From: Oscillospiraceae bacterium
GTDB taxonomy: Bacteria > Bacillota > Clostridia > Oscillospirales > CAG-272
DNA: 64,000 bases
Assembly (NCBI GenBank): GCA_015063845.1
Contig: SVTJ01000008.1
Location: forward strand, 1-64,000
Direction of reading: 5' to 3'
Each line of letters opens with the position of its first letter. The stretch's first letter is position 1. The translations under genes and the position numbers were made by a program. The notes below the pieces were generated by a model. That model saw only the letters and a program-made list of their open reading frames with translations, made no database searches and had not been told where the DNA came from. Positions 20,112-44,018 of the stretch are shown here, piece by piece.

Positions 20112-20120
20112 GGAGGGGCT

Positions 20121-21185
20121 ATGAAAAGAAATAAAGTTATAGATTTTCTTACCGTAACACTGTTCTTTGGCATACTTCTCAGCTTTATGATATACACGGG
20201 CATTGAGACGCTTATGCAGTATGAGCGCAACGGAGCGGTGTCAATAGGAGAGCAAAAGGGCGGATTTAACAGTATGTTTTATGAGGACGAAAACTTGGAT
20301 GGATTCGTTAAATCCTTTGATTACAGAGTTTTCGGACAAACGGGCAGCGCGGATCTTATCGTCGGAAAGGACGACTGGCTGTTCGAGGTGAGAGACACGC
20401 AGAGCGGATACGAGCGTCTGCTCGATTACATCGGCGGCAATCAATTTGACGACAAACAGCTCGAGCGTGCTCATAAAAAAATAACCGATGATAAAAAATT
20501 CTGTGAGGATAACGGAGCGAAGTACGTTTTGGTTGTAGTTCCCGATGCAATTACGGTCTGTTCGGATAAGGTTCCGTCGTATCTCGGATTGCAGAGTGAA
20601 AACACAAGACGCGCGCAGCTCAATAGATATCTTGCGGGCGTTTCGGAAAGCGCGTTCGTAGACCCCACGCAGAGTATGATAGAGGCTAACGAACAGCTAT
20701 GCACCTATAACAATACCGAGAATTCAATAAACGCGTACGGAGCGTACGTTATTTACGAAGGCGTGATGAGAGAGCTTGACGGATATGCTCAGAGAGGCGT
20801 TGTGCCGATAGCGCGCGAGGACGTTGAATTCTTTACGAGGCTCACGGACGGTAAGTCGGTAGCGGTACGCGCGGGACTTGACAAAACCGTGAAAAACCGT
20901 ACGGTGTCGCTGACCGATAAAATGGAATACGACTATAAGGTCGTCGGTAGCAGTAAGGGCGCGATACTTACGAGAATGAACGTAGCAAGCAACGATATGC
21001 GTGTGATAGTGGAGTGTGCGGATGATTGGGACAGAACACAGCTAACACCGTATTTTTCAAATACTTTTTACGAGGTGGTTTATACCTCGGGAGAGGACGG
21101 AACTCGCGCCGTACTCCAAAAGGACGGAGCGGATATAGTTATCCGTTTGGTGCACGAGGGAGAACTCGGTTATATAGCTAAATAG
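20121..21185 (+). CDS. AlgX/AlgJ-like exported protein with degenerate SGNH active site
   Basis: 354 residues with one N-terminal anchor helix (about 10-32) and an outside domain. The hallmark GKDDWLFEVRD (about 82-92) is the entry to AlgJ/AlgX/DHHW acetyltransferase domains, which finish O-acetylation of exopolysaccharides together with an MBOAT. In those proteins an Asp-x-His-Trp-Asn motif precedes GAY; here the aligned residues read ENSINAYGAY, so the Asp and His are gone, and the later His-Asp-Ser-Phe serine block is replaced by VECADDWD before YFSNTFYEVVY. Structure seems kept and chemistry lost or changed. GAGGAGGGGCT precedes ATG 20121. Pairing with the upstream gene is by position and family knowledge. 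Confidence 0.7.
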   Translation: MKRNKVIDFLTVTLFFGILLSFMIYTGIETLMQYERNGAVSIGEQKGGFNSMFYEDENLDGFVKSFDYRVFGQTGSADLIVGKDDWLFEVRDTQSGYERLLDYIGGNQFDDKQLERAHKKITDDKKFCEDNGAKYVLVVVPDAITVCSDKVPSYLGLQSENTRRAQLNRYLAGVSESAFVDPTQSMIEANEQLCTYNNTENSINAYGAYVIYEGVMRELDGYAQRGVVPIAREDVEFFTRLTDGKSVAVRAGLDKTVKNRTVSLTDKMEYDYKVVGSSKGAILTRMNVASNDMRVIVECADDWDRTQLTPYFSNTFYEVVYTSGEDGTRAVLQKDGADIVIRLVHEGELGYIAK

Positions 21186-23039: not shown

Positions 23040-23081
23040 TCTGTCTGCTTTTTTTGCGTTGAATTAAATGTGAAAATATCG

Positions 23082-23125
23082 GAATACCCGCGCGGCGTGA
23101 AGGCTGCGCGGGTATTCTTGTTGTT
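23082..23125 (+). terminator. Rho-independent terminator
   Basis: A 12-bp stem GAATACCCGCGC (23082-23093)/GCGCGGGTATTC (23106-23117) is followed by TTGTTGTTCTT. Confidence 0.82.
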
Positions 23126-23615: not shown

Positions 23616-23644
23616 TTGACTTTTTTCTTATTATATGGTAAGAT
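23616..23644 (+). promoter_or_regulatory. Probable sigma-A promoter of the large ABC locus
   Basis: TTGACT (23616-23621), 17 bp, TAAGAT (23639-23644). It implies a leader of about 290 bases before ATG 23942. Confidence 0.6.
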
Positions 23645-23941: not shown

Positions 23942-26900
23942 ATGAAGACGACGAAATTTCAAAGAATTACAGCTTTGATGCTCGCCTTGGTATTCCTGCT
24001 GTGCTCGGGGACGGTAATCGCCTCCGCGGCAACAGACAGTGAGTCCATTACGGACGTTACCACAAGCGACCTCAAAGATCTGCTTAATGCGATTTCGTAC
24101 AGTGAGTACATTGCGCAGAACGCGAATGTACCCAAGGGTGAGGTCGAAGTTACGATCGACGCAACCCAGAACTACGAGTATGTTATCGACGGCGCGCAGG
24201 TACATAGCTACCTTGCAAGCGATAAAGTCGCTGACGGAAAGTACAAGACTATCAAGCTGTATCCCACAACGGATCTTAAGGCTCTTTCGGCAGAGCTCGC
24301 AAGCGTTGTGAATGCTGAGATCGCTAAGGTCAATGCATCTACTGGCAGCAAGATAGCAGACGTTACGGCAGACGCGCTTCTTGAGAAGCTTGCTCGCGTT
24401 GCTTCTTATGACGATCAGACCGCGTTGTTCACACCCCCTACGGGCACGGTGACGTGGGATATCAGTGATAAGATAAGCACTGCAAGCAAGTACGTTTTGA
24501 TGATCGACTGCTACCCCGTAGCAAACAAGTCGGCATCTGTTGAGAGAATACTTAAGATAAACGGCACGGTTCCTTTCGCAGAGGCTCGTTACGTTACCAT
24601 TTCCAAGGTGTGGAAGAACATCTATGAGGACGGTAAGTTCGCAGTCCCTGAGGGAGAGAACGCTGATGACTATCTCAAGAAGGCTAATGATATGGGTATC
24701 TCCGCTAAGAAGGTTGACGAGAACGGAGTTACTTACATAAAGTACACGATGCCCGCTTACTGGACGTCCGATATCTCGGGGCTTGTAGACGAGCAGACGG
24801 TACGCTTCTTTAAGGAAGATATCGACCTCAATGAGATTCGTTCCAGCCTTGTTCAGGATCCCGAATGGATAACCTATACTGTTAAGGATTCCAACGGCTT
24901 TATGCAAGAGCCTTTCGAGTTCGTTATAGGTCCTGATGACGAGACGGGCAAGACGACCATCTCGCTTGAGTCTGTTAACGAGCCTTTGGCAATAAAGTCC
25001 ATAAGACTTGTACCTTACACACCCAATATTTCTTATGCGGAGTATCTCGCTAAGTACAACGGTGTTGCAAGCGGAACGGATAAGATCAAGATAGAAGCTG
25101 AGTATTATTCTGCTGCTTCTTCTCAGACCATATACCCCGTATCCGATACTACAAGTGCTATAACCTCTCCCACATCGACCGAAAGAACTGTTCTTAACAC
25201 AGTCGGCGGCGATAAGTGGCAGAGCTCGGGTCAGTGGATCGAATACAAGTTCAAGGTAAAGAGCAGCGGTATGTATTCTATCGCTACCCGTTTCAAGCAG
25301 AACGTGCTTGACGGTATGTATACCTCCAGATCGCTGTACATTTACAGCGGCGAAGGCGCAAGTGAGCGCGGATACTACAACGGTATTCCGTTCGCTGAAG
25401 CAGGAAGACTTCAATTTAATTATTCCTCCGATTGGCAGTCGGGAAAGCTGACAGACGGAGTTGATTCCTTCAATATATATTTTGATGAGGGCGTTGAATA
25501 CACGATAAGACTTGAGGTTACCCTCGGCAATATGGGTAACGTCGTTAGCCGTGTTCAGAAATCCCTTGATATAATCAATGATGCTTACCTTAATATACTT
25601 AAGCTCACAGGTACAACGCCTGACGAATTCCGTGACTACGGATTCTCGAGAGTTATGCCTGACACGATGATCTCTATGATCCAGCAGGCGAGAGTTCTCA
25701 ACGAGATATCCGCAGAGCTTCAGGCAGCTGCGAGCGTAAAGAGCTCGATGACGGCAACGCTTGATAAGGTCGCAAGACTTCTTGAGGAAATGGGTAAGGA
25801 CGACGACGAGGTTGCAAAGAACCTTGAGCAGCTCAAGACCTATATCGGTTCGCTCGGTACTTGGGTCGGAGACGCTAAGACTCAGCCTCTGATACTTGAC
25901 TATATCGTTATCCAGGGTGCTGACGATGCAACACTTCCCGAGGCAAAGGCGGGCTTCTTCAAGGCATTGTGGTACGAGATAAAGAGCTTTATTCAGAGCT
26001 TCTTCCGTAACTACGACCGTATGGGTGCTATGACAGAGACCGCTGAGGACGAGAGCGTTGAGGTATGGCTTGCTTACGGTCGTGACCAGTCTCAGGTTGT
26101 AAGAGGACTTATCAATAACGACTTCACTCCTAATTCGGGAGTTGCGATAGATTTGAAGCTGGTTGCAGCGTCAACGTTGTTGCCTTCAATTCTTTCGGGT
26201 ATGGGACCTGACGTTTATATCGGAGTTGCGCAGGGAACTGTTATCAACTACGCTATTCGTGGAGCATTGTTGCCGATCGACGTTGATCTTAACGAGGACG
26301 GAACGATCAAGCGCGATGAAAGCGGAAATCCGTATCCCAGAGCTGACTTCGAAGAGGCAACGGCTGACTTTAACGATGCGGCAATGCTCGTTTTGGGTAT
26401 TGACGACGCACTCGGCGAGCATCACTACTACGGATTGCCCGAGACGCAGAACTTCACGATGATGTTCGTGCGTGAGGACATATTCGCAGAGCTCGATCTT
26501 GAGATCCCCAAGACGTGGGATGAGGTCAAGGAGATAATCCCCGTACTTCAGTCGAACAACATGCAGATCGGTATGACAAAGGACGAGAACATCTTCCTCT
26601 ATCAGCTCGGCGGTGAGCTCTTCGCTGATGACGGAATGAGAATCAATCTCGACTCCAACGTAGCTCTTGAAGCATTCAATACCATGTGTGAAATGTTCAC
26701 CATGTACTCGTTCCCCTACAAGTATGACTTCCCGAACCGTTTCAGAACGGGTGAGATGCCTATCGGCTTTGCGTCATACACGGATACTTATAATAAATTG
26801 AAAGTATTTGCTACCGAGATCGAGGGATTGTGGGGCTTCTACCCGCTTCCCGGATACTATGATGAGAACGGTGATATCAATAACAGCTCCGTTTCTACCA

Positions 26901-27562
26901 TCACAGCTATTTGTATAATCAACGGTTGTGAGGATATTCAGGGCGCATGGGAGTTCTCCAAGTGGCATGCAGGCGCACAGTGCCAGATAGACTATTCTAA
27001 CGAGATGGTTGCTATCCTCGGTCCTTCCGCTAAGCACGCAACGGCGAACACCAAGGCTCTTGAGAGCTTGCCTTGGACGGCAGAGGAGTACACACAGCTC
27101 CAGAAGCAGTTCAACAAGCTTGCTGCTATCCCCAACTACCCCGGACGTTACATCGTTGAGCGTTATACGCAGTTCGCATTCCTTGCAGCTTATAACGACA
27201 ATATGGACCCCGTAACTGAAATGCAGAGATACATCACTACTATCAACGTAGAGATCTCACGTAAGCGTGCAGAGTTCGGACTTGAGATACTCGAGGAAGG
27301 ACAGACACTTGCTGAGAAGCGTATGGAAGAGGCAGAAGAAGCTCTTAAGGCAGCTAAGGACTCCTCCGCATACAACGCAACGTATGACACAGCGTTTAAC
27401 AACGCAATGGCATTGATCGAAGGTTACGAGACAGAGGATTACGCATCGCTCAGATCTCTTGCGGCAGAGCTTGAAGCTCTTAATTCCGAATTGTTCGGAG
27501 TTGCTGCTAAGAAGATGAACGAAGCTGCTAACTCTCTTGTTGAATACGAAAAGTACAAATAA
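23942..27562 (+). CDS. Very large secreted extracellular solute-binding protein with N-terminal beta domains
   Basis: 1206 residues. Signal peptide 1-30 ending ASA-A without a lipobox, so it is not an obvious lipoprotein. Residues about 35-355 and 362-565 are two related beta-rich carbohydrate-binding-like regions, each opened by a SYxEYxAxxN-type sequence (SYSEYIAQNANV, SYAEYLAKYNGV); the second has KIKIEAEYYSAA and WIEYKFKVKSSGMYSIA as in CBM6/35-like modules. A helical stretch (570-690) leads to a family-1 solute-binding domain (about 705-1135: VEVWLAYGRDQSQVV, GPDVYIGVAQG, YGLPETQNFTMMFVRED, KTWDEV, GFASYTD). The tail is coiled-coil-like. It captures an unknown glycan for the downstream permeases. 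AGGAGG precedes ATG 23942. Confidence 0.82.
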   Translation: MKTTKFQRITALMLALVFLLCSGTVIASAATDSESITDVTTSDLKDLLNAISYSEYIAQNANVPKGEVEVTIDATQNYEYVIDGAQVHSYLASDKVADGKYKTIKLYPTTDLKALSAELASVVNAEIAKVNASTGSKIADVTADALLEKLARVASYDDQTALFTPPTGTVTWDISDKISTASKYVLMIDCYPVANKSASVERILKINGTVPFAEARYVTISKVWKNIYEDGKFAVPEGENADDYLKKANDMGISAKKVDENGVTYIKYTMPAYWTSDISGLVDEQTVRFFKEDIDLNEIRSSLVQDPEWITYTVKDSNGFMQEPFEFVIGPDDETGKTTISLESVNEPLAIKSIRLVPYTPNISYAEYLAKYNGVASGTDKIKIEAEYYSAASSQTIYPVSDTTSAITSPTSTERTVLNTVGGDKWQSSGQWIEYKFKVKSSGMYSIATRFKQNVLDGMYTSRSLYIYSGEGASERGYYNGIPFAEAGRLQFNYSSDWQSGKLTDGVDSFNIYFDEGVEYTIRLEVTLGNMGNVVSRVQKSLDIINDAYLNILKLTGTTPDEFRDYGFSRVMPDTMISMIQQARVLNEISAELQAAASVKSSMTATLDKVARLLEEMGKDDDEVAKNLEQLKTYIGSLGTWVGDAKTQPLILDYIVIQGADDATLPEAKAGFFKALWYEIKSFIQSFFRNYDRMGAMTETAEDESVEVWLAYGRDQSQVVRGLINNDFTPNSGVAIDLKLVAASTLLPSILSGMGPDVYIGVAQGTVINYAIRGALLPIDVDLNEDGTIKRDESGNPYPRADFEEATADFNDAAMLVLGIDDALGEHHYYGLPETQNFTMMFVREDIFAELDLEIPKTWDEVKEIIPVLQSNNMQIGMTKDENIFLYQLGGELFADDGMRINLDSNVALEAFNTMCEMFTMYSFPYKYDFPNRFRTGEMPIGFASYTDTYNKLKVFATEIEGLWGFYPLPGYYDENGDINNSSVSTITAICIINGCEDIQGAWEFSKWHAGAQCQIDYSNEMVAILGPSAKHATANTKALESLPWTAEEYTQLQKQFNKLAAIPNYPGRYIVERYTQFAFLAAYNDNMDPVTEMQRYITTINVEISRKRAEFGLEILEEGQTLAEKRMEEAEEALKAAKDSSAYNATYDTAFNNAMALIEGYETEDYASLRSLAAELEALNSELFGVAAKKMNEAANSLVEYEKYK

Positions 27563-27592
27563 TAAGCAAATCTAAAAAGGAGATAGAAGTAC

Positions 27593-28540
27593 ATGTCACA
27601 CAAAACAGCAGAGAAAAAGGCTGTAGCTCGTAAGGATATGACGAAGTGGCAGTGGACTTGGAAGGAAATGAAGCGAAATAAGGTAGCGTACCTGATGGTT
27701 GCACCTTATATGATCGTGTTCACGTGCTTCACAGTCTTGCCCGTCGTGCTTTCGATGGTCATCAGTTTTACGGACTTTAACATGCTTGAGTTGCCGAACA
27801 TAGTATGGCTTGACAACTACGTAAGACTGTTCCTTGAGGATGATATATTCCTTATAGCAGCCAAGAATACATTTATATTTGCTGCCATTGTCGGACCTGT
27901 GTCCTACATCATGTCACTGATGGTAGCATGGTTCATCAATGAGCTTTCTCCGAAGATCAGAGCAATCGTAACCTTGATCTTCTACGCTCCCTCGATTTCA
28001 GGTCAGGTATACCTCGTATGGGCAACACTGTTCTCCAGTGACTCTTATGGTTGGGCAAACGCTTGGCTGATGGAGCTTGGTATAATTAATAAAGAAATAC
28101 TGTTCTTTGAAGACGCCGACTGGGTAATGCCCCTTTGTATCGTAGTCGCGATCTGGACCTCTCTGGGTACCTCCTTCCTTGCGTTTATCGCGGGACTTCA
28201 GGGTATCGATAAGGCTCAGTTTGAGGCAGGAGCGGTCGACGGAATAAGAAACAGATGGCAAGAGCTTTGGTACATAACGCTTCCTAACATGAAGTCACAG
28301 CTTATGTTCGGTGCGGTCATGTCCATAACAAACTCTTTCGGATTTGGAGCAGTCGTTACCGCACTTTGCGGATTCCCGTCAGTTGACTACGCGGCTCATA
28401 CGATAGTCCACCACCTTGAGGACTACGCGAACCAGCGTTTCGAGATAGGTTATTCGTCAACGATAGCTGTAATACTCTTCGTGGTAATGATAGGTGCTAA
28501 CGCACTTGTCAAGAAAGTTCTTTCAAAGGTAGGTTCGTGA
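27593..28540 (+). CDS. Sugar-type ABC transporter permease (MalF/LacF family), pair 1
   Basis: 315 residues, six transmembrane segments with the first at about 38-58. The cytoplasmic EAA loop that docks the ATPase is EAGAVDGIRNRWQELWYI followed by TLPNM (from about 212). The N-terminal positively charged tail (KTAEKKAVARKDMTKWQW) is cytoplasmic. Works with the MalG-type permease that starts one base after its stop. AAAAAGGAGATAG precedes ATG 27593. No ATPase is encoded in the locus, so a shared MsmX/UgpC-like ATPase must serve it, as is common in Gram-positives. Confidence 0.9.
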   Translation: MSHKTAEKKAVARKDMTKWQWTWKEMKRNKVAYLMVAPYMIVFTCFTVLPVVLSMVISFTDFNMLELPNIVWLDNYVRLFLEDDIFLIAAKNTFIFAAIVGPVSYIMSLMVAWFINELSPKIRAIVTLIFYAPSISGQVYLVWATLFSSDSYGWANAWLMELGIINKEILFFEDADWVMPLCIVVAIWTSLGTSFLAFIAGLQGIDKAQFEAGAVDGIRNRWQELWYITLPNMKSQLMFGAVMSITNSFGFGAVVTALCGFPSVDYAAHTIVHHLEDYANQRFEIGYSSTIAVILFVVMIGANALVKKVLSKVGS

Positions 28541-28541
28541 T

Positions 28542-29414
28542 ATGGCAAAGTTAAGAACAAGAAAACATAAAGTCGTACTTGCACGTTCCGCCGGAGGAGA
28601 CGCGGGAATAACAGTTATACTGATAATACTCGGTATATTCATGTTCCTTCCTATGTACTACGTTGTTATCCAGTCTCTTAAGCCTCTTGACGAGCTCTGG
28701 ATGTTCCCCCCGAGATTTATCGTCGCAAAGCCGACAATGCAGAACTTTAAGGATCTGTTTACACTTATGAGCGGAGGCCTCGTGCCCTTCTCAAGATACA
28801 TATTCAACACAGTATTTACTTCCATTGCAGGAACAGTGGGTAACCTTCTGTTCTCCTCGATGGCAGCATACGCAATGGCTAAGATCGCATTCCCCGGCGG
28901 AAAGGCGATGTTTAAGCTGGTAAGAACCTCTCTTATGTTCCATAAGACGGTTACAGCCGTAACCTGCTTCATTCTTATGAGTACGTTCAAGATAATCGAT
29001 ACCTACTGGGCAATAATCATTCCCGCGTGGGGAACGACCATCGGTCTGTACCTTATCAAGCAGTTTATGGAAAGTAACGTTACGGACGCGGTGCTTGAGA
29101 GTGCACGTCTGGACGGAGCAAGTGAGTTTAAGACATTCTGGACGATCGCAATGCCTATGGTTAAGCCCGGTTGGTTGACGCTTATCGTTTACTCGTTCCA
29201 GGATCTTTGGAACCAGGGTGCGTCGATGTATATCCATTCGGAGCAGCTTAAGTCGCTCAACTATGCGATCCAGCAGATAACCGCAGGAGGAATCAAGCGT
29301 GCGGGCGCGAGTGCAGCTTCACTCGTTGTAATGATGCTTGTTCCGATCCTTGTCTTCGTAATAACTCAGTCGAACATCATCGAAACGATGGGTTCGAGTG
29401 GTATGAAGGACTAA
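28542..29414 (+). CDS. Carbohydrate ABC transporter permease (MalG family), pair 1
   Basis: 290 residues, six transmembrane segments. EAA loop ESARLDGASEFKTFWTIAMP (from about 185). Residues 40-75 carry YVVIQSLKPLDELWMFPPRF, the usual segment after TM1 of MalG/AraQ-type proteins. Starts one base after the partner permease, so the two are translationally linked. The N-terminal RTRKHKVVLARSAGGD is basic and cytoplasmic. Confidence 0.9.
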   Translation: MAKLRTRKHKVVLARSAGGDAGITVILIILGIFMFLPMYYVVIQSLKPLDELWMFPPRFIVAKPTMQNFKDLFTLMSGGLVPFSRYIFNTVFTSIAGTVGNLLFSSMAAYAMAKIAFPGGKAMFKLVRTSLMFHKTVTAVTCFILMSTFKIIDTYWAIIIPAWGTTIGLYLIKQFMESNVTDAVLESARLDGASEFKTFWTIAMPMVKPGWLTLIVYSFQDLWNQGASMYIHSEQLKSLNYAIQQITAGGIKRAGASAASLVVMMLVPILVFVITQSNIIETMGSSGMKD

Positions 29415-29432
29415 TTTTAACAGGAGGACAGT

Positions 29433-31658
29433 ATGAAAAAAATAACATCAGTTATTTGCATAATATTTGCGTTTATTATGGTTCTTGCTCTTCCTGTTGG
29501 CGCTGCAACACCGTATCAGACGTATACGTACTCTATAAGCGGCACAGCGCTGTATTCTCCCGATGCTTACGTTCCTGCAAAGTCCGTTGACGCAGCTTAC
29601 ATCGGACTTCAGGACGATGCGGTAATAGAAAAATATTACGCAGATCTCGAGAAGAAAGACTTGGAACCCAAGTTGACCATAGATAACCCCACAGACCTTG
29701 AGGTCGATGACGTGGGTAACGTCTATATTGCAGATTCCAATAATAACCGTATTCTTGTACTTGACAGATACTATAAGTTGAAGTTCATCATAGAGAACTT
29801 TATCAACGACCAGGGCGTACCCGATACTTTTTCCAAGCCTCAGGGCGTGTTCATCACGGCTGATAAGGTGGTTGGAGACGAGGTAGTTCCCGGAAGAATA
29901 TTTGTCTGCGATACGGAAGCAAACAGAATAGTAACCTTTACACGCGACGGCGAATTTCTCGCAATAATCCCCGCTCCTGAGTCAGAACTCTTTGAAGAGG
30001 GCGACGTATATCAGCCTATTGCTGTGGCAGTAGACCCCTACGACAGACTTTATGTTGTTTCCAAGACAACTAACCAGGGTGTCATCGTTATGACAGATAG
30101 CGGTGATTTCACAGGATTTATCGGTGCGCAGAAGGCAATAATCTCCGCTTGGGACAGAGTTTGGAGAAGATTCCAGACCGAAGAGCAGAGAGAGGGAACA
30201 CAGTTAATAATCCCTGTAACCTTTAACAACATAACCGTTTCGGGCGACTTTATATACGTAACAACGGCTCTTATCGAAGAGAGTAAGGTTCTCGATTCTA
30301 TAAAGAGCAAGTCCAAGAGCGGTGACTACGCCCCCGTTAAGATGCTTAATGCAGCGGGTGACGAGATCATGCGTCGTAACGGCTTCTATCCCCCTTCGGG
30401 AGAAGTTGACGTTGCAAAGACGCATGTATCCGATGAAATATTCGGAGCATCTGTACTTACTGACGTAGCGGTCGGACCTGAGAAGACATGGTCTATCGTC
30501 GACAGTGAGCGAAGCAAGGTATTTACTTATGACTTCGACGGAAATCTTTTGTTCGCGTTCGGTGATATCGGATCAATGCTTGGAAATATCTCCAAGGAAG
30601 GTCTTGCGGCTATCGTATATCAGGGCGACAATATGCTGTTGCTCGATAAGCAGGAGTCGAGATTTACCGTATATGAGAGAACAGAGTACGGCGATATTCT
30701 GATAGATGCTTTGCACAATCAGAACGAGCGTAACTACGATGCTGCTATTGACGACTGGATGGAGATCCTTAAGAGAAACTCCAACTTCGACGCTGCATAC
30801 ATCGGAATCGGTAACGCACTTTACAGAGACCATAAGCTTACCGAGGCACTTGAGTACTATGAGGCAGCATATGATACGGAGAACTATTCCGTAGCATATA
30901 AGGACCTCAGAAAGGAATGGCTCGCATCCTGGATCTGGCTCATTCCTATCGTGGTCATAGCTATTTGCATAGGTTGCTCTAAGTTCCTTAAGTTCGCTAA
31001 TAAGGTCAATAAGAAAGCGGCTACTTCGGGAGAGAAGAAGACGTTTGGGCAAGAGTTCCTCTACGTATTCCACGTTATCTTCCATCCGTTTGACGGTTTC
31101 TGGGATCTGAAGCACGAAAAGCGCGGCTCGCTCAGAGCAGCACTGTTGATACTCGGCTTGACCGTTGCGGCATTCTACTATCAGGCGATCGGTGAAGGAT
31201 ATTTGCTCAATCCGCAGGGAATATATACATCCCTCTTCGGAGTTATCGCAAGTATCGGCGCACCTCTTGCACTGTGGGTGATCGGTAACTGGTGTCTTAC
31301 GACACTGTTCGACGGCGAAGGAAGCTTGAAGGATATCTTCATAGCAACCTGCTACTCGCTGATGCCTATGGTCATTATCATGATCCCCACAACGATCATG
31401 TCTAACTTCCTCATTTCCGCAGAGCTTGATATTCTCGCAGTTATAAACGTATTCGCGTTTATCTGGACGGGTATACTGATATTCTTCGGTATGATGGTAA
31501 CACATGACTACACGATGGGTAAGAACTTTATCACAGTTCTCGGAACTATCGTGGCAATGATCTGCATCATGTTTATCGCGCTTCTGTTCACAACGTTGCT
31601 CGGAAAGCTTGTAAGCTTTGTAACCAACATTATAACAGAGATCCAATTCAGAATGTAG
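29433..31658 (+). CDS. NHL-propeller, TPR and YIP1-domain membrane protein
   Basis: 741 residues. Signal peptide or N-terminal anchor (1-25, ending VGA-A). Residues about 75-415 contain NHL repeats (DLEVDDVGNVYIADSNNNR, VAVDPYDRLYVVSK, DVAVGPEKTWSIVDSER), a six-bladed propeller typical of extracytoplasmic binding. Residues 425-495 have two TPR helices pairs (ERNYDAAIDDWMEILKRN, KLTEALEYYEAAYDTENY). A transmembrane helix at about 500-520 is followed by a YIP1 domain of five hydrophobic segments (545-735; FHPFDGFWDLKHEKRG). Propeller outside and YIP1 in the membrane suggests an assembly or gating partner of the transporter; that role is inference. GGAGGACAGT precedes ATG 29433, 18 bases after the permease. 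Confidence 0.8.
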   Translation: MKKITSVICIIFAFIMVLALPVGAATPYQTYTYSISGTALYSPDAYVPAKSVDAAYIGLQDDAVIEKYYADLEKKDLEPKLTIDNPTDLEVDDVGNVYIADSNNNRILVLDRYYKLKFIIENFINDQGVPDTFSKPQGVFITADKVVGDEVVPGRIFVCDTEANRIVTFTRDGEFLAIIPAPESELFEEGDVYQPIAVAVDPYDRLYVVSKTTNQGVIVMTDSGDFTGFIGAQKAIISAWDRVWRRFQTEEQREGTQLIIPVTFNNITVSGDFIYVTTALIEESKVLDSIKSKSKSGDYAPVKMLNAAGDEIMRRNGFYPPSGEVDVAKTHVSDEIFGASVLTDVAVGPEKTWSIVDSERSKVFTYDFDGNLLFAFGDIGSMLGNISKEGLAAIVYQGDNMLLLDKQESRFTVYERTEYGDILIDALHNQNERNYDAAIDDWMEILKRNSNFDAAYIGIGNALYRDHKLTEALEYYEAAYDTENYSVAYKDLRKEWLASWIWLIPIVVIAICIGCSKFLKFANKVNKKAATSGEKKTFGQEFLYVFHVIFHPFDGFWDLKHEKRGSLRAALLILGLTVAAFYYQAIGEGYLLNPQGIYTSLFGVIASIGAPLALWVIGNWCLTTLFDGEGSLKDIFIATCYSLMPMVIIMIPTTIMSNFLISAELDILAVINVFAFIWTGILIFFGMMVTHDYTMGKNFITVLGTIVAMICIMFIALLFTTLLGKLVSFVTNIITEIQFRM

Positions 31659-31680
31659 CAGATAGGAGGTAGATAATATA

Positions 31681-34600
31681 ATGAAGAAAATAAGAATAAT
31701 ATCGACTATCTTGGCTGTACTGATGCTCATGGGAGCGTTCACGTTCGCATCTGCTGCTGAAGAAGAGGTTGTCGGACATATCTCCGAGCCCGAAACAGGT
31801 TGGAAGACCAATAACACCAAGCCCACGATCGATTATTTCACGGGTCAGGGTGTTAAGAAGGAAACAACACTTGTAGACGGAGTGGAGAAGGAAACAGGTA
31901 AGTATATCGCTGACGGTGAAAAGATAGTTTTCAACGCAGAGGATAAGCTTAGATACATGGATAAGCGTTTCGTAAAGGACGGATACGAATTGTACGTTGA
32001 CGCGTACAGCGGAGAAGTTGCTACGAAGTGCCTTAAGACGGGAGAGATACTTTTCTCTAACCCCTACTCAATAGGTAATTATGACAGTACCAAGATGTCC
32101 GATGACGTCAAGAAAGAGGTAATGTCACAGATAGTTGTAAAATATACCGATATAGCAACCGAAGAGTACGAGTACTACTACAGCTACGAGTGGGCTGCAA
32201 GCCGTGGACAGATAATCGTAAGAAATGTCAAGAACGGTATCCGTGTAGAGTACACTATCGGACGTGAGGAGGCAAGACTTCTTGTTCCTCATATGATCGC
32301 TAAGGATTCCTTTGAGAAAAAGATCCTTAACATTATGGGCGAAGCTGTTGGATATGACTTCACAACAAAAAAGGCAACCGAAGGTGCAAACAGCGAAGAC
32401 GTATTCTCTGCTAGGAAGGTTATGGCTTACTACAAGCTTAAGGATCCCGAGAACGAGCAGATCGAGGAAGTTAAGCAAAACATCCTCACACAGTTCCCCA
32501 TAACAAAGAGAATGCCTGTTTACGTTCTTGACGACGCTACGTCCGAGACTGAAAAGGCAAAGATCGAAACACTTATAAAGACATACTGTCCCGACTACTC
32601 ATACGAGGATCTTGACGAGGACCACTTGCTTGTCGGTTATACCGCAGAAGACAAGAACCCGCCTCTGTTTAAGATGGCTCTTGAGTACTCGCTCGACACA
32701 GACGGTATGACGGTAAGACTTCCCGCAAACGGTATCCGTTTCAACGAGTCTCTTTACAGACTTGATGAGATCCAGATACTTCCTTACATGGGCGCGGGAG
32801 CAAACCCCAATGAGGGTTATACCTTCTTCCCGGACGGCTCGGGAACGTTGTTTGATTTCAATAAGATAGCAGAGTCGGGTATCGAGACCTCGCTTGACGG
32901 AACTCTTTACGGTAACGACTATGCATATCATACCATAAGCGGAAAGCTTGAGGAAATACTCCGCTATCCCGTATTCGGAATAGTTGAGAACGAGAACATT
33001 ACAGCGTTTGAGCCTGAACCTGAGGGAACGACCGAGGGCGTGGTGGAAGAAGAGAAGGAAGACGTATACAAGAAACGCGGATACGTCGCAATGGTAGAGG
33101 AAGGCGACGCGCTTATGCAGCTGAGCTCCTACCATATGGGTGCTAAGGGTGTTTATAACACGGTTATGATGACTGTGTTCCCGAGACCTAAGGATACCTA
33201 CAACGTAGCAGATGCGATCTCTGTCGGTGCAAATGACACATGGACAGTCGTCTCCGCAAGAAAGTATACAGGAAACTTCAAGATCAGATACTTTATGCTG
33301 ACTGATCCCGCTGTTGCGAACGCTAGCGGCATCACCAATTACTACGATACGTCTTATGCGGGAATGGCACAGGCATACCGTGACTACCTCGAAAAGACGG
33401 GAGTGCTCACAAAGCTTACCGATGAGCAGGTAGATGAGGACGTACCGCTTTACATCGAGACGTTCGGAGCTATCTTCTCGACTCAGAAGTTCCTCTCCGT
33501 TCCTGTTGACGTAACAGTTCCGCTCACATCCTTTGACGATATCGTTACTATGTATGACGAGCTTTCGGTCCAGGGAGTAGATAATATCAACTTCATAATG
33601 AAGGGTTATACAAAGGGCGGTCTTGAAAGCGAAAAGGTACCGTATAGACTTAAATGGGAAAAGGCAGTCAAGGGAGATTATGATTTCGAGGAGCTCCTCG
33701 CATATTCCAACGAAAAGGGCTTCGAGCTCTTCCCGGACTTTGACTTCGTATTCTTTAGCAACAATACGTTGTTTGACGGTCTTACGCTTAAGAAGCACGC
33801 AGTTAAGACTATCGACAACCGTTATACAAGTAAGCGTGATTACAGTGCAACAAAGCAGTCGCACGTAGGATACTACGATCTCGCTATTTCTCCCGCATAC
33901 TTCAGCCGTTTCTACGAGAAGTTCACGGAGAATTACCTTAAGACAGGCGCAACTTCTATATCCGTTTCTACACTCGGTTCCTTCCTGAACTCCGACTTTG
34001 ATGAGGACGAACCTTACAACCGCGAGGATGCTAAGGCGTTCACGATTCAGGCATTCGAATATCTCAACTCCAAGTATGAGAACGTAATGACAGAGGGCGG
34101 AAACGCTTACACATGGAAGTACGTAGATTACATCACAGACATAGCACTTGACTCCAGCCGTTACGCTCAGTCCTCCGCATCTGTTCCTTTCCTTGGAATG
34201 GTTCTTCACGGATACGTTCAGTATGCAGGCTCTGCGATCAACATGGAAGGTAACATTGAGTACGCAATGCTCAAGGCTATCGAAAACGGTGCAGGACTTA
34301 AGTTCATCCTTTCTTACCAGAATACAGATGAGCTTAAGAAGTACGAGATCACAAGTAACTATTACTCCATCAGATACGATATCTGGCTCGAGGACGTAGT
34401 TGAGCTTTACAATGAGCTTAACAGCGTACTTGCAGGTGTTCAGACAAGTGTTATCGCGCACCATGAGTTCCTTAACGACGGTATTCGTGTTCCCGACGAC
34501 GATGAGATACTCAGAGACGTTGAGAATGCAGTAAACGCCGCTATCAACAATGAGCGCGACAATGATGACAAGAAGAATCAGGAGCTTATAGACGCACTCA

Positions 34601-35307
34601 GAGAGGCTCGTGAGCAAACCAAGAATACTGCTGCTGTATTTGGCAATGGCGGTGTTGTTGGAGAAGGCGACAATGAGTTGTCTATGACAAAATACGCATC
34701 TACAAAGACTAATTTCGATAGTATTGTTGCATCGATCCTTGCAACGACAACACTTAAAGAAGCAACCGCTCTTGTTTCAAGCTTTGAGAACGATGCTAAC
34801 AGATACGCATTTGTAGGCGCAGGTCTGTGCAACCTTTATCAGAAGGCTAACACAACATACCGTGAGCTCATTCTTGCGGATGACACACTTTCTCAGGCCA
34901 GAAAGGATGCTCTCATAGCAAGCCTCGACGCAATGGATGCAAACATCGTTTGCACAGGCAACAACCTTGATACATTCAAGGCTGAGTTTGAGCTCCAGGT
35001 AAAGAGTGTATACGATAAGTTCGTAGCACTTGGTATGGCTGACGTAACTCTTGAGGGAATGCTCGATAAGATCTATACCGCTGCAGGTATAAAGGTCGTT
35101 GAACAAGAGCCCGAGGAAGAGTTCGACAGTAAGGTAAACACATATAAGGCAGACGACAATAAGATAGTATATGAAGTATATCAGAACGGAAACGAGACTG
35201 TTGAGCTCCTTCTCAACTTCAACAACTATCGCGTAATGGTAGCGGTAAACGGTGTTCTTTACACGGTTGACGCATACGGTTATATCGTACTCCCTAAAGC
35301 AAACTAA
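31681..35307 (+). CDS. DUF5696 secreted protein, possible TIM-barrel glycoside hydrolase-like enzyme
   Basis: 1208 residues with a signal peptide (1-25, ASA-A). Residues about 40-540 are beta-rich (DRYMDKRFVKDGYELYVD, FNESLYRLDEIQILPYMG, FFPDGSGTLFDFNK). Residues about 585-920 look like a (beta/alpha)8 barrel: DVPLYIETFGAIFS, VQGVDNINFIMKG, FELFPDFDFVFF, GYYDLAISPAYF, TSISVSTLGSFLNSDF, ENVMTEGGNAYTWKY, VPFLGMVLHGYVQYAG, LKFILSYQN. The acidic residues at barrel strand ends (Asp in PDFDF, Glu in MTEGG) are candidate catalytic groups. A variable helical insert (960-1140) and a small beta domain end the protein. I recognise the family as DUF5696; the enzyme idea is inference. AGGAGGTAG precedes ATG 31681. 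Confidence 0.75.
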   Translation: MKKIRIISTILAVLMLMGAFTFASAAEEEVVGHISEPETGWKTNNTKPTIDYFTGQGVKKETTLVDGVEKETGKYIADGEKIVFNAEDKLRYMDKRFVKDGYELYVDAYSGEVATKCLKTGEILFSNPYSIGNYDSTKMSDDVKKEVMSQIVVKYTDIATEEYEYYYSYEWAASRGQIIVRNVKNGIRVEYTIGREEARLLVPHMIAKDSFEKKILNIMGEAVGYDFTTKKATEGANSEDVFSARKVMAYYKLKDPENEQIEEVKQNILTQFPITKRMPVYVLDDATSETEKAKIETLIKTYCPDYSYEDLDEDHLLVGYTAEDKNPPLFKMALEYSLDTDGMTVRLPANGIRFNESLYRLDEIQILPYMGAGANPNEGYTFFPDGSGTLFDFNKIAESGIETSLDGTLYGNDYAYHTISGKLEEILRYPVFGIVENENITAFEPEPEGTTEGVVEEEKEDVYKKRGYVAMVEEGDALMQLSSYHMGAKGVYNTVMMTVFPRPKDTYNVADAISVGANDTWTVVSARKYTGNFKIRYFMLTDPAVANASGITNYYDTSYAGMAQAYRDYLEKTGVLTKLTDEQVDEDVPLYIETFGAIFSTQKFLSVPVDVTVPLTSFDDIVTMYDELSVQGVDNINFIMKGYTKGGLESEKVPYRLKWEKAVKGDYDFEELLAYSNEKGFELFPDFDFVFFSNNTLFDGLTLKKHAVKTIDNRYTSKRDYSATKQSHVGYYDLAISPAYFSRFYEKFTENYLKTGATSISVSTLGSFLNSDFDEDEPYNREDAKAFTIQAFEYLNSKYENVMTEGGNAYTWKYVDYITDIALDSSRYAQSSASVPFLGMVLHGYVQYAGSAINMEGNIEYAMLKAIENGAGLKFILSYQNTDELKKYEITSNYYSIRYDIWLEDVVELYNELNSVLAGVQTSVIAHHEFLNDGIRVPDDDEILRDVENAVNAAINNERDNDDKKNQELIDALREAREQTKNTAAVFGNGGVVGEGDNELSMTKYASTKTNFDSIVASILATTTLKEATALVSSFENDANRYAFVGAGLCNLYQKANTTYRELILADDTLSQARKDALIASLDAMDANIVCTGNNLDTFKAEFELQVKSVYDKFVALGMADVTLEGMLDKIYTAAGIKVVEQEPEEEFDSKVNTYKADDNKIVYEVYQNGNETVELLLNFNNYRVMVAVNGVLYTVDAYGYIVLPKAN

Positions 35308-35326
35308 GGAAAGAGAGGTATAAATA

Positions 35327-36286
35327 ATGACTAATGATGTAAAAATCAAAGCACCAAAAAGAAGAAAAAACGCCTCTCTTGAAAAGCGTAAAGCGAGAGC
35401 GGGTTGGATATTCGTATTACCCTTCCTGATAGGCTTTATAGTTGTATATCTTCCTATGATAATCGACTCCATTCGATACAGCTTTTATCACATAAAGTTT
35501 ATAACGGGTGGATATGAGCTGGTTCCCGTAGGTTGGCAGAACTACAACTACGCGCTCTTTGAAAGCACCGAATACGTTCAGACCCTTGTTAAGGGTCTGA
35601 CGGATATGGTGTTTGATATCCCGATGATCCTGATATTCTCGCTGTTCATGGCAGTTCTTCTTAACCAGAAGATGGTCGGACGTGCGGCATTCAGAGCGAT
35701 CTTCTTCGTTCCCGTTATCGCATCCACAGGTATCATGGAAGCAATCGACGCTCAGAACACATTGAGTGATTACATGGGCGAGGCTTCAGGTATCGAGGAC
35801 GGTTCAGGTGAGAGCGCAGCAACAGACATCGTTTCCGCGATGGATATTGAGGTACTGTTCTCCGGAATGGCGGTAGGACAGGGACTTGTTGAATACGTCG
35901 TTACGGCGATCAACAATATTTATGATATAGTTAACCGTTCGGGCGTACAGATGCTTATATTCCTTGCGGGACTTCAGTCTATATCTCCCGCGATATATGA
36001 GTCGGTACAGATCGACGGTGCAACCTCTTGGGAGACCTTCTGGAAGATAACCTTCCCGATGATAAGCCCGATGATCCTGGTTAATGCGGTGTATACGATA
36101 ATAGACGCATTTACAACGGACTCCAATGTGGTAATGAAGTTTATATCCTCGAGTGAAAAGTCGATCACAAACGGTAACGTTATTACGTCGGCTATGGCGT
36201 GGATGTACTTCTTGCTGGTAATTGCGATAATCGCGTTGTTTGCGCTTATATTCTCGGCATTCGTATTCTACCAGAGACGTGATTAA
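35327..36286 (+). CDS. Sugar-type ABC transporter permease (MalF family), pair 2
   Basis: 319 residues, six transmembrane segments. EAA loop ESVQIDGATSWETFWKITFP (from about 225). Unusual is a Gly/Ser/Asp-rich exposed insert between TM segments (about 147-170: DYMGEASGIEDGSGESAATD) that the pair-1 permease lacks; it is the type of outside loop that could contact a binding partner. The N-terminus is strongly basic (KIKAPKRRKNASLEKRKAR). AGAGAGG precedes ATG 35327, 19 bases after the DUF5696 gene. Confidence 0.88.
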   Translation: MTNDVKIKAPKRRKNASLEKRKARAGWIFVLPFLIGFIVVYLPMIIDSIRYSFYHIKFITGGYELVPVGWQNYNYALFESTEYVQTLVKGLTDMVFDIPMILIFSLFMAVLLNQKMVGRAAFRAIFFVPVIASTGIMEAIDAQNTLSDYMGEASGIEDGSGESAATDIVSAMDIEVLFSGMAVGQGLVEYVVTAINNIYDIVNRSGVQMLIFLAGLQSISPAIYESVQIDGATSWETFWKITFPMISPMILVNAVYTIIDAFTTDSNVVMKFISSSEKSITNGNVITSAMAWMYFLLVIAIIALFALIFSAFVFYQRRD

Positions 36287-36298
36287 GGAGGTGTATTT

Positions 36299-37411
36299 AT
36301 GAACCAAAATGTTGAAAATCAAGTAAAAGTTCGTAAAGAGTCAAAGAACAAGATTCGTGTTGACTTTGATAGAACACCTCTTAAAGAGCGTTTGAAGGCA
36401 AAGTTCCTCTCGCTGTTCTTCTTGAAGAAGGTACTTTGGTATATTGTAAGACTTATACTCCTTATCGGTATTTCTTACATAGTACTTTTCCCTCACTTCA
36501 CGAAGATAGCAGGTTCCTTTATGGCACCTGAGGATTTCGTTGACGTAACTGTAAGACTTATCCCGAAGAACTTCTCGCTCGAAATGTATAGGGCGATATG
36601 GTCGGAGCTTGGCTACGTTCAGGCATTCACCAATACGTTGTTGCTCTCGCTGAGTACGGCGTTGATCCAGACCTTCATATGCTGCTTTGTAGCATACGGT
36701 CTTGCAAAGTTCAAATTCAAGGGTAACAACATAGTATTCTTTGCAGTTGTCTTCTCGTTGGTAGTTCCTCACCCGACCCTCAGACTGTCAATGTTTATGA
36801 GCTTCAGATATTTCGATATTCTCGGAATATTTGGATTCCTTAACGGCGGTGGATTTGAGATACCCTTTACAGACATAAGGATACTCGAGGACGTAGTGGA
36901 TATTATCCCCAATGCTTGGGATAAGTTCTCACCCGAAGGAATCAATCTTACCAACACATATTGGCCGCTTATCATACTTTCACTCTGCGGACTTGCATTT
37001 AAGAACGGACTTTACATATTTATGCTTCGTCAGTTCTTCCGCGGCGTACCTGATGAGCTTGAGGAGTCTGCATATATCGACGGTTCGGGCGTGTTCCGTA
37101 CCTTCTTCCAGATCATTCTTCCTCTTTCCGTGCCGATGATGATCACCGTGTTCCTGTTCGCGTTCTCGTGGCAGTGGACCGACGACTTCTACACAGGATT
37201 GTTCTTTACGGATGCAAAGACGGTACTTATGCCGAACATCGTAAACATTCCTACGTCGCTGACGACGGACTACGCAGGTCAGAACTTGTACTACGCAGCA
37301 ATAAGAAATACTTGCGGAATAATGATAATTGCTCCGCTGATAATAATGTATCTCTTCTGCCAGAAGTACCTTGTTCAGGGTATCGAGCGTTCCGGTCTTA
37401 CGGCAGACTAA
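36299..37411 (+). CDS. Carbohydrate ABC transporter permease (MalG family), pair 2
   Basis: 370 residues, longer than pair-1 MalG (290) by an N-terminal basic region of about 50 residues and an inserted loop before the EAA region (about 180-220: GGGFEIPFTDIRILEDVVDIIPNAWDKF is split across a hydrophobic turn). EAA loop ESAYIDGSGVFRTFFQIILP (from about 257). TM1 is LIGISYIVLFPHF. AAGGAGGTG precedes ATG 36299, 12 bases after its partner. Two terminator-like hairpins follow, closing the 13.5-kb locus. Confidence 0.88.
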   Translation: MNQNVENQVKVRKESKNKIRVDFDRTPLKERLKAKFLSLFFLKKVLWYIVRLILLIGISYIVLFPHFTKIAGSFMAPEDFVDVTVRLIPKNFSLEMYRAIWSELGYVQAFTNTLLLSLSTALIQTFICCFVAYGLAKFKFKGNNIVFFAVVFSLVVPHPTLRLSMFMSFRYFDILGIFGFLNGGGFEIPFTDIRILEDVVDIIPNAWDKFSPEGINLTNTYWPLIILSLCGLAFKNGLYIFMLRQFFRGVPDELEESAYIDGSGVFRTFFQIILPLSVPMMITVFLFAFSWQWTDDFYTGLFFTDAKTVLMPNIVNIPTSLTTDYAGQNLYYAAIRNTCGIMIIAPLIIMYLFCQKYLVQGIERSGLTAD

Positions 37412-37438: not shown

Positions 37439-37475
37439 AAGGGCACTCGCAAATGCGAGTGCCCTTGTTGTGTCT
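37439..37475 (+). terminator. Terminator of the ABC locus
   Basis: AAGGGCACTCGC (37439-37450)/GCGAGTGCCCTT (37455-37466) with a 4-base loop, then GTTGTGTCTT. Confidence 0.8.
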
Positions 37476-37481
37476 TGAAAC

Positions 37482-37515
37482 AAAGAAAGAACGGCACTCA
37501 AGCCGTTCTTTCTTT
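37482..37515 (-). terminator. Terminator of dapAB (possibly bidirectional)
   Basis: AAAGAAAGAACGGC (37482-37495) pairs with GCCGTTCTTTCTTT (37502-37515). Read on the minus strand it lies just after dapB and continues into TTTCTTTGTTTC; on the plus strand it is followed by GTCGTTTTA. Confidence 0.75.
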
Positions 37516-37528
37516 GTCGTTTTATATA

Positions 37529-40855: not shown

Positions 40856-43800
40856 TTATTTAAAGTATATCGTTCGTGCGGTGGCGGAATCGCTTGCCAG
40901 GATGTTTTGTACGTTGAGCGTATTTATAAGATAATCGTTGACCTCATAAGTCGCTCTGCCCTTATAGGTGTGAGTTGTTTCTCCCGTGTCTGTCGTTAAG
41001 ACGTAGGTGTGTCCGTTAAAGATCAAGTCCGATGTCGTCCAGAAAGCGAATTCGGGGTTTATGAGCTTGTAGAGCTCTTTCGTTGAGTTGTTTCGTCTTA
41101 CGTATATACCGCTCTCAACGCTGATAGCGATACCGTGATGCGATACCTGAACGTATTTTGCCTCGAGATATTCGCCGTATCTTGCGCACATCTCATTGCA
41201 TGCCTCGGTAGTGGTGTCACCCAAAACAACAAAATTATTGTTCTGAGAATCATTGCTGACGAGGTCTACCGTAAATACCATTGTCTGAACGTTACCGTTG
41301 CCGTTTTTGTTGTTAGTGCCACAGCCAGCTTCTGACTCTGCCTTTATGGTGTTGGGGAGATAGTCGGATACCGTGTAGAGTATCTCAACAGTAGTGTCAG
41401 CAAATGTGTATTTCTGACCCGAGAGGGGCTTATATACCGGGACGTTTGGATATCTGCTTGCAATGGTGCTTCTGACGCTTGATGTTGTAAATGTCTCAAA
41501 TCTTGTTTGCTCAGCCGTATCGCAAGGGTTGAAAAGGATCTTATTAAGCGTTATTGTTGTGTCCTTGTAGTATGTGTTTGCAAAGCCCTCGAAGGCTCCT
41601 GTGTGGTCGCCGTGACCGTGCGTAAGAATCCAGCCTGCAATAACTATCTTATTGGGGTCTGGCGCGTTAGCCTTCAGAAAATCGTATATATTTTTGACGT
41701 TGGCAGTGGTGTTGTTTCCGCCGTCGATTATCAAAAATCTACCGTCGCTCAAGCGGATGATATATCCCATACCGCCGTCGTACACGTCTACCTTTTCGCC
41801 GTCAATTAATGCGGGATTATCCGTCTTGACAAGAGCTGACAGCTGATGAAGTATAACGTCGTATTTTGTCTGGGACGAAATGGTGTCCACAAAGGGAATA
41901 AGGTCGGTTTTTGCGGTGACTATGCGTAGCTCTTCGGAGTATTCTACCCAATATGCGTGCGCCATCATTCCCGTGGCGCTGTTGTAGTAGGTTTTAAAGA
42001 CGTTGTTGTTTGCTACGTTTTCGGAGCGAAGGGTATATCCCTGCGCCTCGAGATTTTGGCATATTTTGTTGTAGGCGTATTGGGTCACACCCTTATAAAG
42101 CTTCATAGTATGACCGTCGTCCAGGTCGTATTGACCTACGTAGTGTACACCTGCGATGTACTTCGCAAAGTCTTGCGTTTTGTCTATATAAGCGGAATAG
42201 TCGAGCGAGTACTCGTTGTCGTCAAAATTGTTTATAACGAGTGTTATGAACTTATATCCGTCAGGCGCATAGAGAGTGCCGTCGGGCTCCTTTATCGCGT
42301 CGTATGCTTTCTTGACGGGTACGGTAGTGGTTTTGCTTCCGAGAGTTACGATAAAGCCTGCTTCCTCTGCATTTTCATCAATTGCGGCAATCAAGCGAAG
42401 ACTGTACGTTCCGTTAGCATTGCGCGTCATCTTCTCCTGTGTTCCGACAGTCACGACGTCGCCAAGTCCGTTGAAGCAGCTGATGCCTCCTTTAGCCGCC
42501 AAATAGAAGAATTCTGCCTTACTCAGGGAAGTGAAGCGAGTGTCGTTCATACCGAAATGCTCCGAATACATTCCGAAATATGCGTCCTTGCCTCCGTAAG
42601 CGATGACGCAGTAATTGGTGATATCGGTAGCGGGGACCTGCTCTCCGTTTTCATCCGTCTCAACTTCTTTAGACCATATTTTTCCTCCCGTTAGCGGAAC
42701 GTCGGTAAGGACAAAATTGTTTGTAAAAGAGGTTCTTGAATAAGCGTTTGTAGTAGCTCTTGAAACGAAATGGGAGATGAAAACACTTTTCAGATCGGTG
42801 ATCGTTGCGGTGATAGGACCTGCGTTATAGCAGCCGTCAAAGCTTACGTAGCTGTCGTTCATATGTCCAATAAATCCGCCGATGCTCTTTTTTGCCGTTA
42901 TGCTTGTAAGGTTTGCGCAATTTGTGAAGGTGGTACGTGTCGGCTCAGAGCCATCTGTAGGCTCGGGAACTGCGAGAATTCCAATAAATCCTCCGATGTT
43001 TTCGCCGCTGCTTGAGCCGTTTATCACTCCCTTTGATACACAGTCTTCAAAGGTTGTTGCCACTTGTGATTTTCCTATAAATCCGCCTATTCCCTGATTG
43101 AAGGTGGTGGAGCTTATATTTACGTTTGCCGTGCATGAGGAGAACTCATTCGCGGAATAGGAAAGACCGATAAATCCGCCGAGGTTTGACAACGTGCCCG
43201 TCGGAACGAACGTAGCTGTCGCGCTGCACCCCTCATATTTTGCAGGGTTCGGGTCGTATCCGACAAATCCTCCGACGTTTGATGAGGTCGTATTGACAGT
43301 TAAGTTGGTGGAACAGTTTTTAAATGTTATGGAGTGCGTGGCATTTGAAATATATCCTGCAAAACCGCCTGCTTTTGCGCTTGTTGTTATAGTGCCGACG
43401 ACGTGACAGTTTTCAAATAAAACGTCACCTGCCGCCGCTTGCACGCGATAAGCAAAAATACCGGAATTGGCTGTTGTAAAATCGGCTGTTACGTCCGCAA
43501 GCGTAAGATTTTTGATGGTCGTAGTGTTTACAAGGTCGAAAAATCCAAGACAGTTTTTTAATTTGAAATTGCTTATAACGTGACCGCCTCCGTCAAGCTC
43601 GCTCTTAAAGTGGTTTTGCGTCTTTCCGATAGATTCGGTCCATTCATATCCACCGAGGTCAATATCCTCTGTGATGATAAAATACTTTTTAGCGCCTGAT
43701 GCCGAGTTTATATAATCTCTAAAATACAAGAGCTCTTCGGCAGTTGATATCTCCCAAGGCTTACTCTTTGTACCGCTTCCTTTTGCAAAGCCCGAAGCGG

Positions 43801-43900
43801 ATGTCAGAGCGCCTGCCGACGTTATCGGCGCGATCATTAAAGTGCCCGTTATCATAACGAGCGCAATGAAGAATGAAATTGAACGAAGCATCTTTTTCAT
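40856..43900 (-). CDS. Large secreted protein: GLUG-like repeats plus metallo-beta-lactamase-fold hydrolase
   Basis: 1014 residues from ATG 43900 (MKKMLRSISFF), with AAGGA nine bases upstream; earlier in-frame Met codons up to 43987 precede the natural signal peptide. Signal peptide 1-30. Residues about 45-400 are repeats with GGFxGYxxx...FxNC pattern (GGFAGYISN, GGFVGYDPN, GGFIGLSYS, GGFIGKSQV, GGFIGHMND), a beta-helix-type surface array. Residues about 500-620 carry a common Clostridial beta domain. From about 700 there is a metallo-beta-lactamase fold (GYIIRLSDGRFLIIDGG, LTHGHGDHTGAF with the HxHxDH zinc motif near 760, VVLGDTTTE, VSHHGI). Secreted hydrolase of unknown substrate; no sorting motif seen. 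Own promoter at 43938-43966. Confidence 0.82.
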   Translation of the reverse strand: MKKMLRSISFFIALVMITGTLMIAPITSAGALTSASGFAKGSGTKSKPWEISTAEELLYFRDYINSASGAKKYFIITEDIDLGGYEWTESIGKTQNHFKSELDGGGHVISNFKLKNCLGFFDLVNTTTIKNLTLADVTADFTTANSGIFAYRVQAAAGDVLFENCHVVGTITTSAKAGGFAGYISNATHSITFKNCSTNLTVNTTSSNVGGFVGYDPNPAKYEGCSATATFVPTGTLSNLGGFIGLSYSANEFSSCTANVNISSTTFNQGIGGFIGKSQVATTFEDCVSKGVINGSSSGENIGGFIGILAVPEPTDGSEPTRTTFTNCANLTSITAKKSIGGFIGHMNDSYVSFDGCYNAGPITATITDLKSVFISHFVSRATTNAYSRTSFTNNFVLTDVPLTGGKIWSKEVETDENGEQVPATDITNYCVIAYGGKDAYFGMYSEHFGMNDTRFTSLSKAEFFYLAAKGGISCFNGLGDVVTVGTQEKMTRNANGTYSLRLIAAIDENAEEAGFIVTLGSKTTTVPVKKAYDAIKEPDGTLYAPDGYKFITLVINNFDDNEYSLDYSAYIDKTQDFAKYIAGVHYVGQYDLDDGHTMKLYKGVTQYAYNKICQNLEAQGYTLRSENVANNNVFKTYYNSATGMMAHAYWVEYSEELRIVTAKTDLIPFVDTISSQTKYDVILHQLSALVKTDNPALIDGEKVDVYDGGMGYIIRLSDGRFLIIDGGNNTTANVKNIYDFLKANAPDPNKIVIAGWILTHGHGDHTGAFEGFANTYYKDTTITLNKILFNPCDTAEQTRFETFTTSSVRSTIASRYPNVPVYKPLSGQKYTFADTTVEILYTVSDYLPNTIKAESEAGCGTNNKNGNGNVQTMVFTVDLVSNDSQNNNFVVLGDTTTEACNEMCARYGEYLEAKYVQVSHHGIAISVESGIYVRRNNSTKELYKLINPEFAFWTTSDLIFNGHTYVLTTDTGETTHTYKGRATYEVNDYLINTLNVQNILASDSATARTIYFK

Positions 43901-43937
43901 AAGCAACATCCTTGCAACAAAAAATAATATTAAGAAG

Positions 43938-43966: not shown

Positions 43967-44018
43967 TGCTTTTTTGCTTGCGAACACCGATGAAAAGCTT
44001 TTTGTTTATCCTTTGTCG

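Follow-up and report, generated by a model that had tools for sequence, protein, structure and literature searches.

The question raised by this locus is why a single gene cluster should hold two complete pairs of sugar-type permeases, one very large binding protein and no ATPase, and what two further large proteins do between the pairs. The cluster lies in a window of 64,000 nucleotides (the whole stretch of DNA that was analysed) from an Oscillospiraceae genome. Seven genes on one strand with gaps of 1-30 bases had been described at 23942-37411, and coordinates, strand and lengths agree with that description. We call the genes A to G; the gaps between them are, in order, 30, 1, 18, 22, 19 and 12 bases. 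The features are the following.

Start 23616, end part 23623..23644, plus strand: promoter-like match in the leader (TTGACT, 17, TAAGAT), at chance level
23942..27562, plus strand: A, giant binding protein, 1206 aa
27593..28540, plus strand: B, MalF-type permease of pair 1, 315 aa (Pfam/NCBIfam, tree)
28542..29414, plus strand: C, MalG-type permease of pair 1, 290 aa (Pfam/NCBIfam, tree)
29433..31658, plus strand: D, signal, NHL propeller, TPR, transmembrane segment and Yip1 domain, 741 aa
31681..35307, plus strand: E, DUF5696 protein with GH129 fold, 1208 aa
35327..36286, plus strand: F, MalF-type permease of pair 2, 319 aa (Pfam/NCBIfam, tree)
36299..37411, plus strand: G, MalG-type permease of pair 2, 370 aa (Pfam/NCBIfam, tree)
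37439-37466 and 37480-37517, plus strand: two terminator-like stems 3' of G

The cluster is flanked upstream by sufC- and sufB-type genes, with a long terminator-like stem after sufB (23081-23118), and downstream by dapB and dapA on the opposite strand, both over NCBIfam cut-offs. Over the region there is no excess of terminator-like sites (14 against 13.2 +/- 3.5 in shuffles) or of promoter-like sites (21 against 25.9 +/- 5.7), so the proposal that terminators occur only at the end depends on the long stems. From this layout A-G are likely to be read as a single transcript. An Rfam element in the leader was considered and dropped, the one match being at chance level and far under its gathering score. 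Two other features of the surroundings should be mentioned: at 18717-21185, upstream of sufCB, an MBOAT acyltransferase gene adjoins an AlgX-like gene (below cut-off), forming an alginate-O-acetylation-like pair, and on the minus strand at 40856-43987 lies a frame of 1043 aa whose one assignment is a short metallo-beta-lactamase match at residues 742-806.

That the seven genes belong together is supported by their neighbourhood in relatives, which is conserved. The order A-G is found in 19 of 21 same-genus loci (the other two end at contig ends) and in 69 of 80 named loci (ten stop at a contig end, one at the locus end), and all 13 exceptions are thus cut. The named set comes from a scan in which a permease B alignment was run against named genomes; of at least 575 relatives the 80 best were kept, mostly from uncultured Clostridia, many of herbivore guts. 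It overlaps in part with the same-genus set (L079/G008, L103/G003, L104/G017, L113/G007). Within the 69, one locus (L094) has E as two ORFs and another (L114) has an extra B-C-type pair upstream. A strong DUF5696 match is present in 21 of 24 other genomes of the genus, the three misses being only 66-70% complete, and in the order in 6 of 15 other genomes, with a weak match in one; the system is thus not present everywhere. Other families contributed 33 loci: 11 from the order, 20 from a phylum draw and 2 on plasmids. The order A-G is kept in 21 of them, D sometimes being two genes and A partial in two; in 2 the genes are rearranged, in 7 D-E-F-G is not directly preceded by C, and 3 are cut.

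The phylum draw, a single draw of 299 genomes including the window genome, gave a strong E in 28, a strong D in the same 28, and A in all 28 (one as a fragment), with cut-offs of at least 400 bits for E and D and at least 170 bits for A except for a contig-edge fragment of 81 bits (G135). The CBM-linker segment of A is found in two more genomes (G136 and G178) without strong D or E; their A contigs of 3788 and 4307 bases end inside B and are therefore no counter-examples. One genome (G261) has a partial D match of 200 bits and no E, and the remaining 268 have none of A, D and E at the scores used. The raw tallies at an E-value of 0.001 are 37 genomes for E, 40 for A and 124 for D. For D the weak matches are to NHL stretches (at most 70 bits), and for A to CBM- or coil-like stretches (at most 75 bits); since few candidates were scored per genome, copy numbers are lower bounds. 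This co-occurrence rules out D or E as hitch-hikers, and together with the conserved order it places both with the permeases. Gene distances over 23 loci are correlated as well (0.70-0.87), and for B/F, C/G, A/E and B/G none of 2000 shuffles gave a value as high as the observed one; part of this is due to the common ancestry of the genomes and would be expected for any co-inherited genes.

The two MalF/MalG pairs of the first-pass annotation are well founded. BPD_transp_1 (PF00528) is over cut-off in B, C, F and G, whose top NCBIfam matches are UgpA, UgpE, UgpA and GlcU, all below cut-offs, and each has the EAA-type cytoplasmic loop of CUT1 permeases (EAGAVDG, ESARLDG, ESVQIDG and EESAYIDG, read by eye). 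In a tree each of the four classes is a single clade, and six ordinary permeases branch close to B and G, so the pairs B/C and F/G are old and distinct; the four separate old clades are a new observation. Recent duplication of one pair is ruled out by the same tree. Nine permeases of the window genome match PF00528, and B, C, F and G are the only sugar-type ones; of the other five, two belong to a polyamine importer, two are amino-acid-like and one is sulfonate-like (the last three below cut-offs). The polyamine importer, with an ATPase over NCBIfam cut-off and a fused permease and binding protein, also holds the single SBP_bac_1/SBP_bac_8 match of the genome, A itself being missed by both models. 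No ATPase is encoded in the locus, as had been noted. The only UgpC-type ATPase over cut-off in the window genome lies elsewhere, unlinked to A-G (C20:32153-33256). Such an ATPase is over cut-off in 30 of 40 relatives, including some without strong E, and in Paenibacillus cellulosilyticus a ugpC gene directly precedes A.

It had been proposed that two transporters share one substrate platform, and this stands in part, as A-B-C and D-E-F-G are separable in other genomes. The seven D-E-F-G loci without C directly upstream come from six genomes (one, L188, has an ordinary permease pair nearby; another, L187, is near a contig end). Seven A loci were taken from those six genomes and G133, of which four are A-B-C alone and three continue into D. 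With no C directly before D-E-F-G in 7/33 and A-B-C lacking D in 4/7, a single physical machine is not required. The statement that there is one binding protein holds for the window lineage; among the other families 18 of the 33 loci add, in the stretch examined, a same-strand gene for an ordinary binding protein, and in 11 of the 33 such a gene lies within 200 bases after G (proteins outside 380-620 aa were left out of the count). In Butyrivibrio fibrisolvens D1 there are two ordinary binding-protein genes after G and a GH43 gene ahead of A. In P. cellulosilyticus four genes for luciferase-like flavin oxidoreductases and two for binding proteins come after the seven genes (L176:18955-28178), surroundings which are odd for a sugar importer.

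These data bring up the hypothesis of two separate importers which are merely co-transcribed: A would serve B/C only, D and E would belong to F/G alone, and F/G would receive their ligand from E or from another binding protein outside those found. The separate occurrence of the two modules, the ordinary binding-protein genes close behind G and the fact that F/G and B/C are not recent duplicates all agree with it. It is harder to reconcile with the presence of A in all 28 genomes of the draw which have D and E, with the seven genes standing together in every uncut locus of the window lineage, and with a genome whose sole SBP_bac_1/SBP_bac_8 match belongs to the polyamine importer. We hold it to be the less probable arrangement, yet one to be taken seriously.

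The giant binding protein A has the length of 1206 residues given earlier. Pfam finds no family in it over cut-off, and its MalE-type solute-binding domain (about residues 704-1112) is detectable solely by profile or fold search. It is preceded by a signal-type N-terminus, two CBM-like domains (the first weak in the window copy, the second at about residues 375-534) and a helical part, an architecture which is newly described here. A lipobox is absent from the window copies of A and E. Just N-terminal of the binding domain, at residues 672-688 (window 25955-26005), there is a conserved hydrophobic helix, FFKALWYEIKSFIQSFF; with A lacking a lipobox, contact with the membrane by this helix was considered, and perhaps it has that function. 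The fold matches the beta-1,2-glucooligosaccharide binding protein Lin1841 of Listeria innocua (PDB 5ysb) at about 20% identity, tied with 3uor (Z 35.1); the Lin1841 chain has 397 residues and is without the CBM-like and helical parts of A. The match was not accepted as evidence for beta-1,2-glucan as substrate, given the low identity, the tie by fold and a count of glycosidases among the 12 typed flanking genes of the window copy of 0/12.

Protein D is the NHL-TPR-YIP1 protein it was taken for: Yip1 (PF04893; 65.4 bits against a cut-off of 28.6, residues 546-714) and NHL are over Pfam cut-off and TPR is below it. Of the 31 loci which extend as far as D, 14 have it as a single fused gene and 17 as separate NHL-TPR and YIP1 genes, and the existence of both versions supports a physical link between the two parts.

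The identification of E as a DUF5696 protein is equally firm (PF18952, 452.3 bits against a cut-off of 25.6). E has nearly the whole GH129 fold, with structural matches to ZgGH129 (5opq, 8rzk) and NagBb (5wzn), and profile A8 gives sequence homology to GH129 (8rzk, E-value 9.7e-13; 5wzn, 3.3e-8). That DUF5696 shares both fold and sequence homology with GH129 is new, the identity to the GH129 enzymes being 13-15% (VIA alignment). The GH129 model PF11308 has no match in the window genome at an E-value of 0.001 (2 candidates scored), so E is not classed as a GH129 member, and when E was compared by profile with one PF11308 protein, the alignment covered the last beta-domain only. The families are linked by one protein (L205:25-2535, G334:C17) which matches PF11308 and, near its end, DUF5696 just over cut-off. 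Before the last beta-domain E has a long helical insertion (residues ~930-1150, window 34468-35130), present in 5 of 37 aligned E proteins and variable in length; in L081 the protein reaches 2036 aa. The window genome has a second, shorter DUF5696-like protein (L050:9201-10931, that is G000:C12:14200-15930; 576 aa, 107 bits), downstream of two QueG/reductive-dehalogenase-like iron-sulfur proteins.

Could E be an active enzyme at the cell surface, a GH129-type glycosidase or one with a chemistry of its own, which trims the glycan before uptake? Apart from fold and homology, the conservation of acids within the window clade would favour this: among 63 E proteins, nine barrel acids (E593, D686, D688, D699, D712, D772, E782, D783 and E868) are kept at 86-97%. 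Across families (37 E proteins) E868 is Glu in 36 and is the sole near-invariant barrel acid; no other barrel Asp or Glu is conserved above 76%, and the putative nucleophile strand is variable, with no acid conserved throughout. These latter facts, and the missing PF11308 match, make an active enzyme rather doubtful. As the clade-conserved acids are not kept across families, E may process the glycan or only hold it. The suggested outside processing and docking stage agrees with the fold of E and with A having CBM-like domains.

No substrate had been assigned, and none can be named from the window copy, which has no adjacent glycosidase. A look for glycosidases beside copies in other genomes had been suggested; they are found beside some relatives' copies. 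One genome (G034) has six copies of the system, and a scan of nine neighbours found glycosidase genes beside four: GH127; GH78-type; GH2; GH106 and GH31. In five of these copies (L033, L038, L040, L041, L042) distances between E proteins agree poorly with the distances of the other genes (r 0.24-0.44, against 0.68-0.91 for the remaining gene pairs), as if E were adapting to each substrate independently. A tally of flanking families (E-value 0.001), which covered 80 of the 104 downstream flanking proteins and none of the 36 upstream ones, has, among its best 25 families, 19 SBP_bac_1, 3 each of GH42, GH26, alginate lyase and GH2 N-terminal domain, and 1 pectate lyase; ten further neighbours gave a glycoside-hydrolase family in 0/10. 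Such neighbours point to breakdown products of varied polysaccharides as possible substrates, in those relatives only.

In a very different scenario the unit would not import nutrients at all: it would sense or handle a polymer of the cell's own surface, D being the sensor and the permeases the carriers of a wall precursor or of a breakdown product. This would suit a locus which is single-copy in the window genus (genomes searched) with no glycosidase at its side, and two proteins, D and E, without a known transport role. The CUT1-type permeases and MalE-type domain, the genome with six copies, four of them next to glycosidases, and the GH43 gene in Butyrivibrio speak against it, and we regard it as very improbable.

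The seven-gene set is conserved in many Firmicutes and most likely imports sugars. More specifically we propose, with a probability of about 0.6, that A-G is a conserved two-module CUT1 (MalFG) carbohydrate-import unit with a surface glycan-handling stage. In module 1 (A-B-C) A, a large surface protein in this reading, would use its two CBM-like domains to keep a glycan close to the MalE-type domain, and the latter would hand an oligosaccharide to B/C. Module 2 (D-E-F-G) would contribute a second, independent permease pair with D and E as partners; A might serve one pair or both. D is predicted to be a membrane scaffold with the Yip1 domain in the membrane and the TPR and NHL propeller outside, and E a GH129-fold surface protein which would hold, present or trim the glycan. 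The one unlinked UgpC/MsmX-type ATPase would drive both pairs. Import direction and a glycan ligand are presumed.

The suggestion of an undescribed system agrees with text searches of the open journal literature, which gave no description of it, no mention of DUF5696 and, among the papers listed, no relevant report joining YIP1 or NHL with transporters, binding proteins or polysaccharides. If the proposal is true, ABC sugar import in Firmicutes has a surface glycan-handling stage absent from that literature. DUF5696 and bacterial NHL-TPR-YIP1 proteins are tied to sugar import by near-perfect co-occurrence in the phylum sample, DUF5696 gains a fold and a related enzyme family, and B. fibrisolvens D1 and P. 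cellulosilyticus are culturable hosts.

SusCD of Bacteroidetes is an outer-membrane glycan importer in which a surface platform holds the glycan over the channel. A bolder formulation makes A-G its Gram-positive counterpart: E, as a retired GH129 relative, and D would form the surface platform, and the glycan of A would pass to two permease pairs sharing an ATPase. We consider this speculative and rather unlikely, the odds of a retired enzyme being lowered somewhat by the acids conserved within the window clade. The likeness is an analogy only, with no homology claimed; membrane, energy source and proteins all differ. Gram-positive polysaccharide-utilisation loci resemble the system in some relatives, where transporter genes stand beside glycosidases and binding proteins; degrading enzymes in the same locus are thus found there, whereas the window copy has none adjacent. 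MalEFG with MsmX stands for those CUT1 carbohydrate importers whose ATPase is shared, and has in common with A-G the MalF/MalG-type permeases, a MalE-type domain and, as a candidate partner of A-G, an unlinked UgpC-type ATPase. Ordinary sugar importers are without the two extra putative surface proteins; to the MalEFG/MsmX plan A-G adds D and E, a second old permease pair beside the first, and a giant binding protein bearing CBM-like domains.
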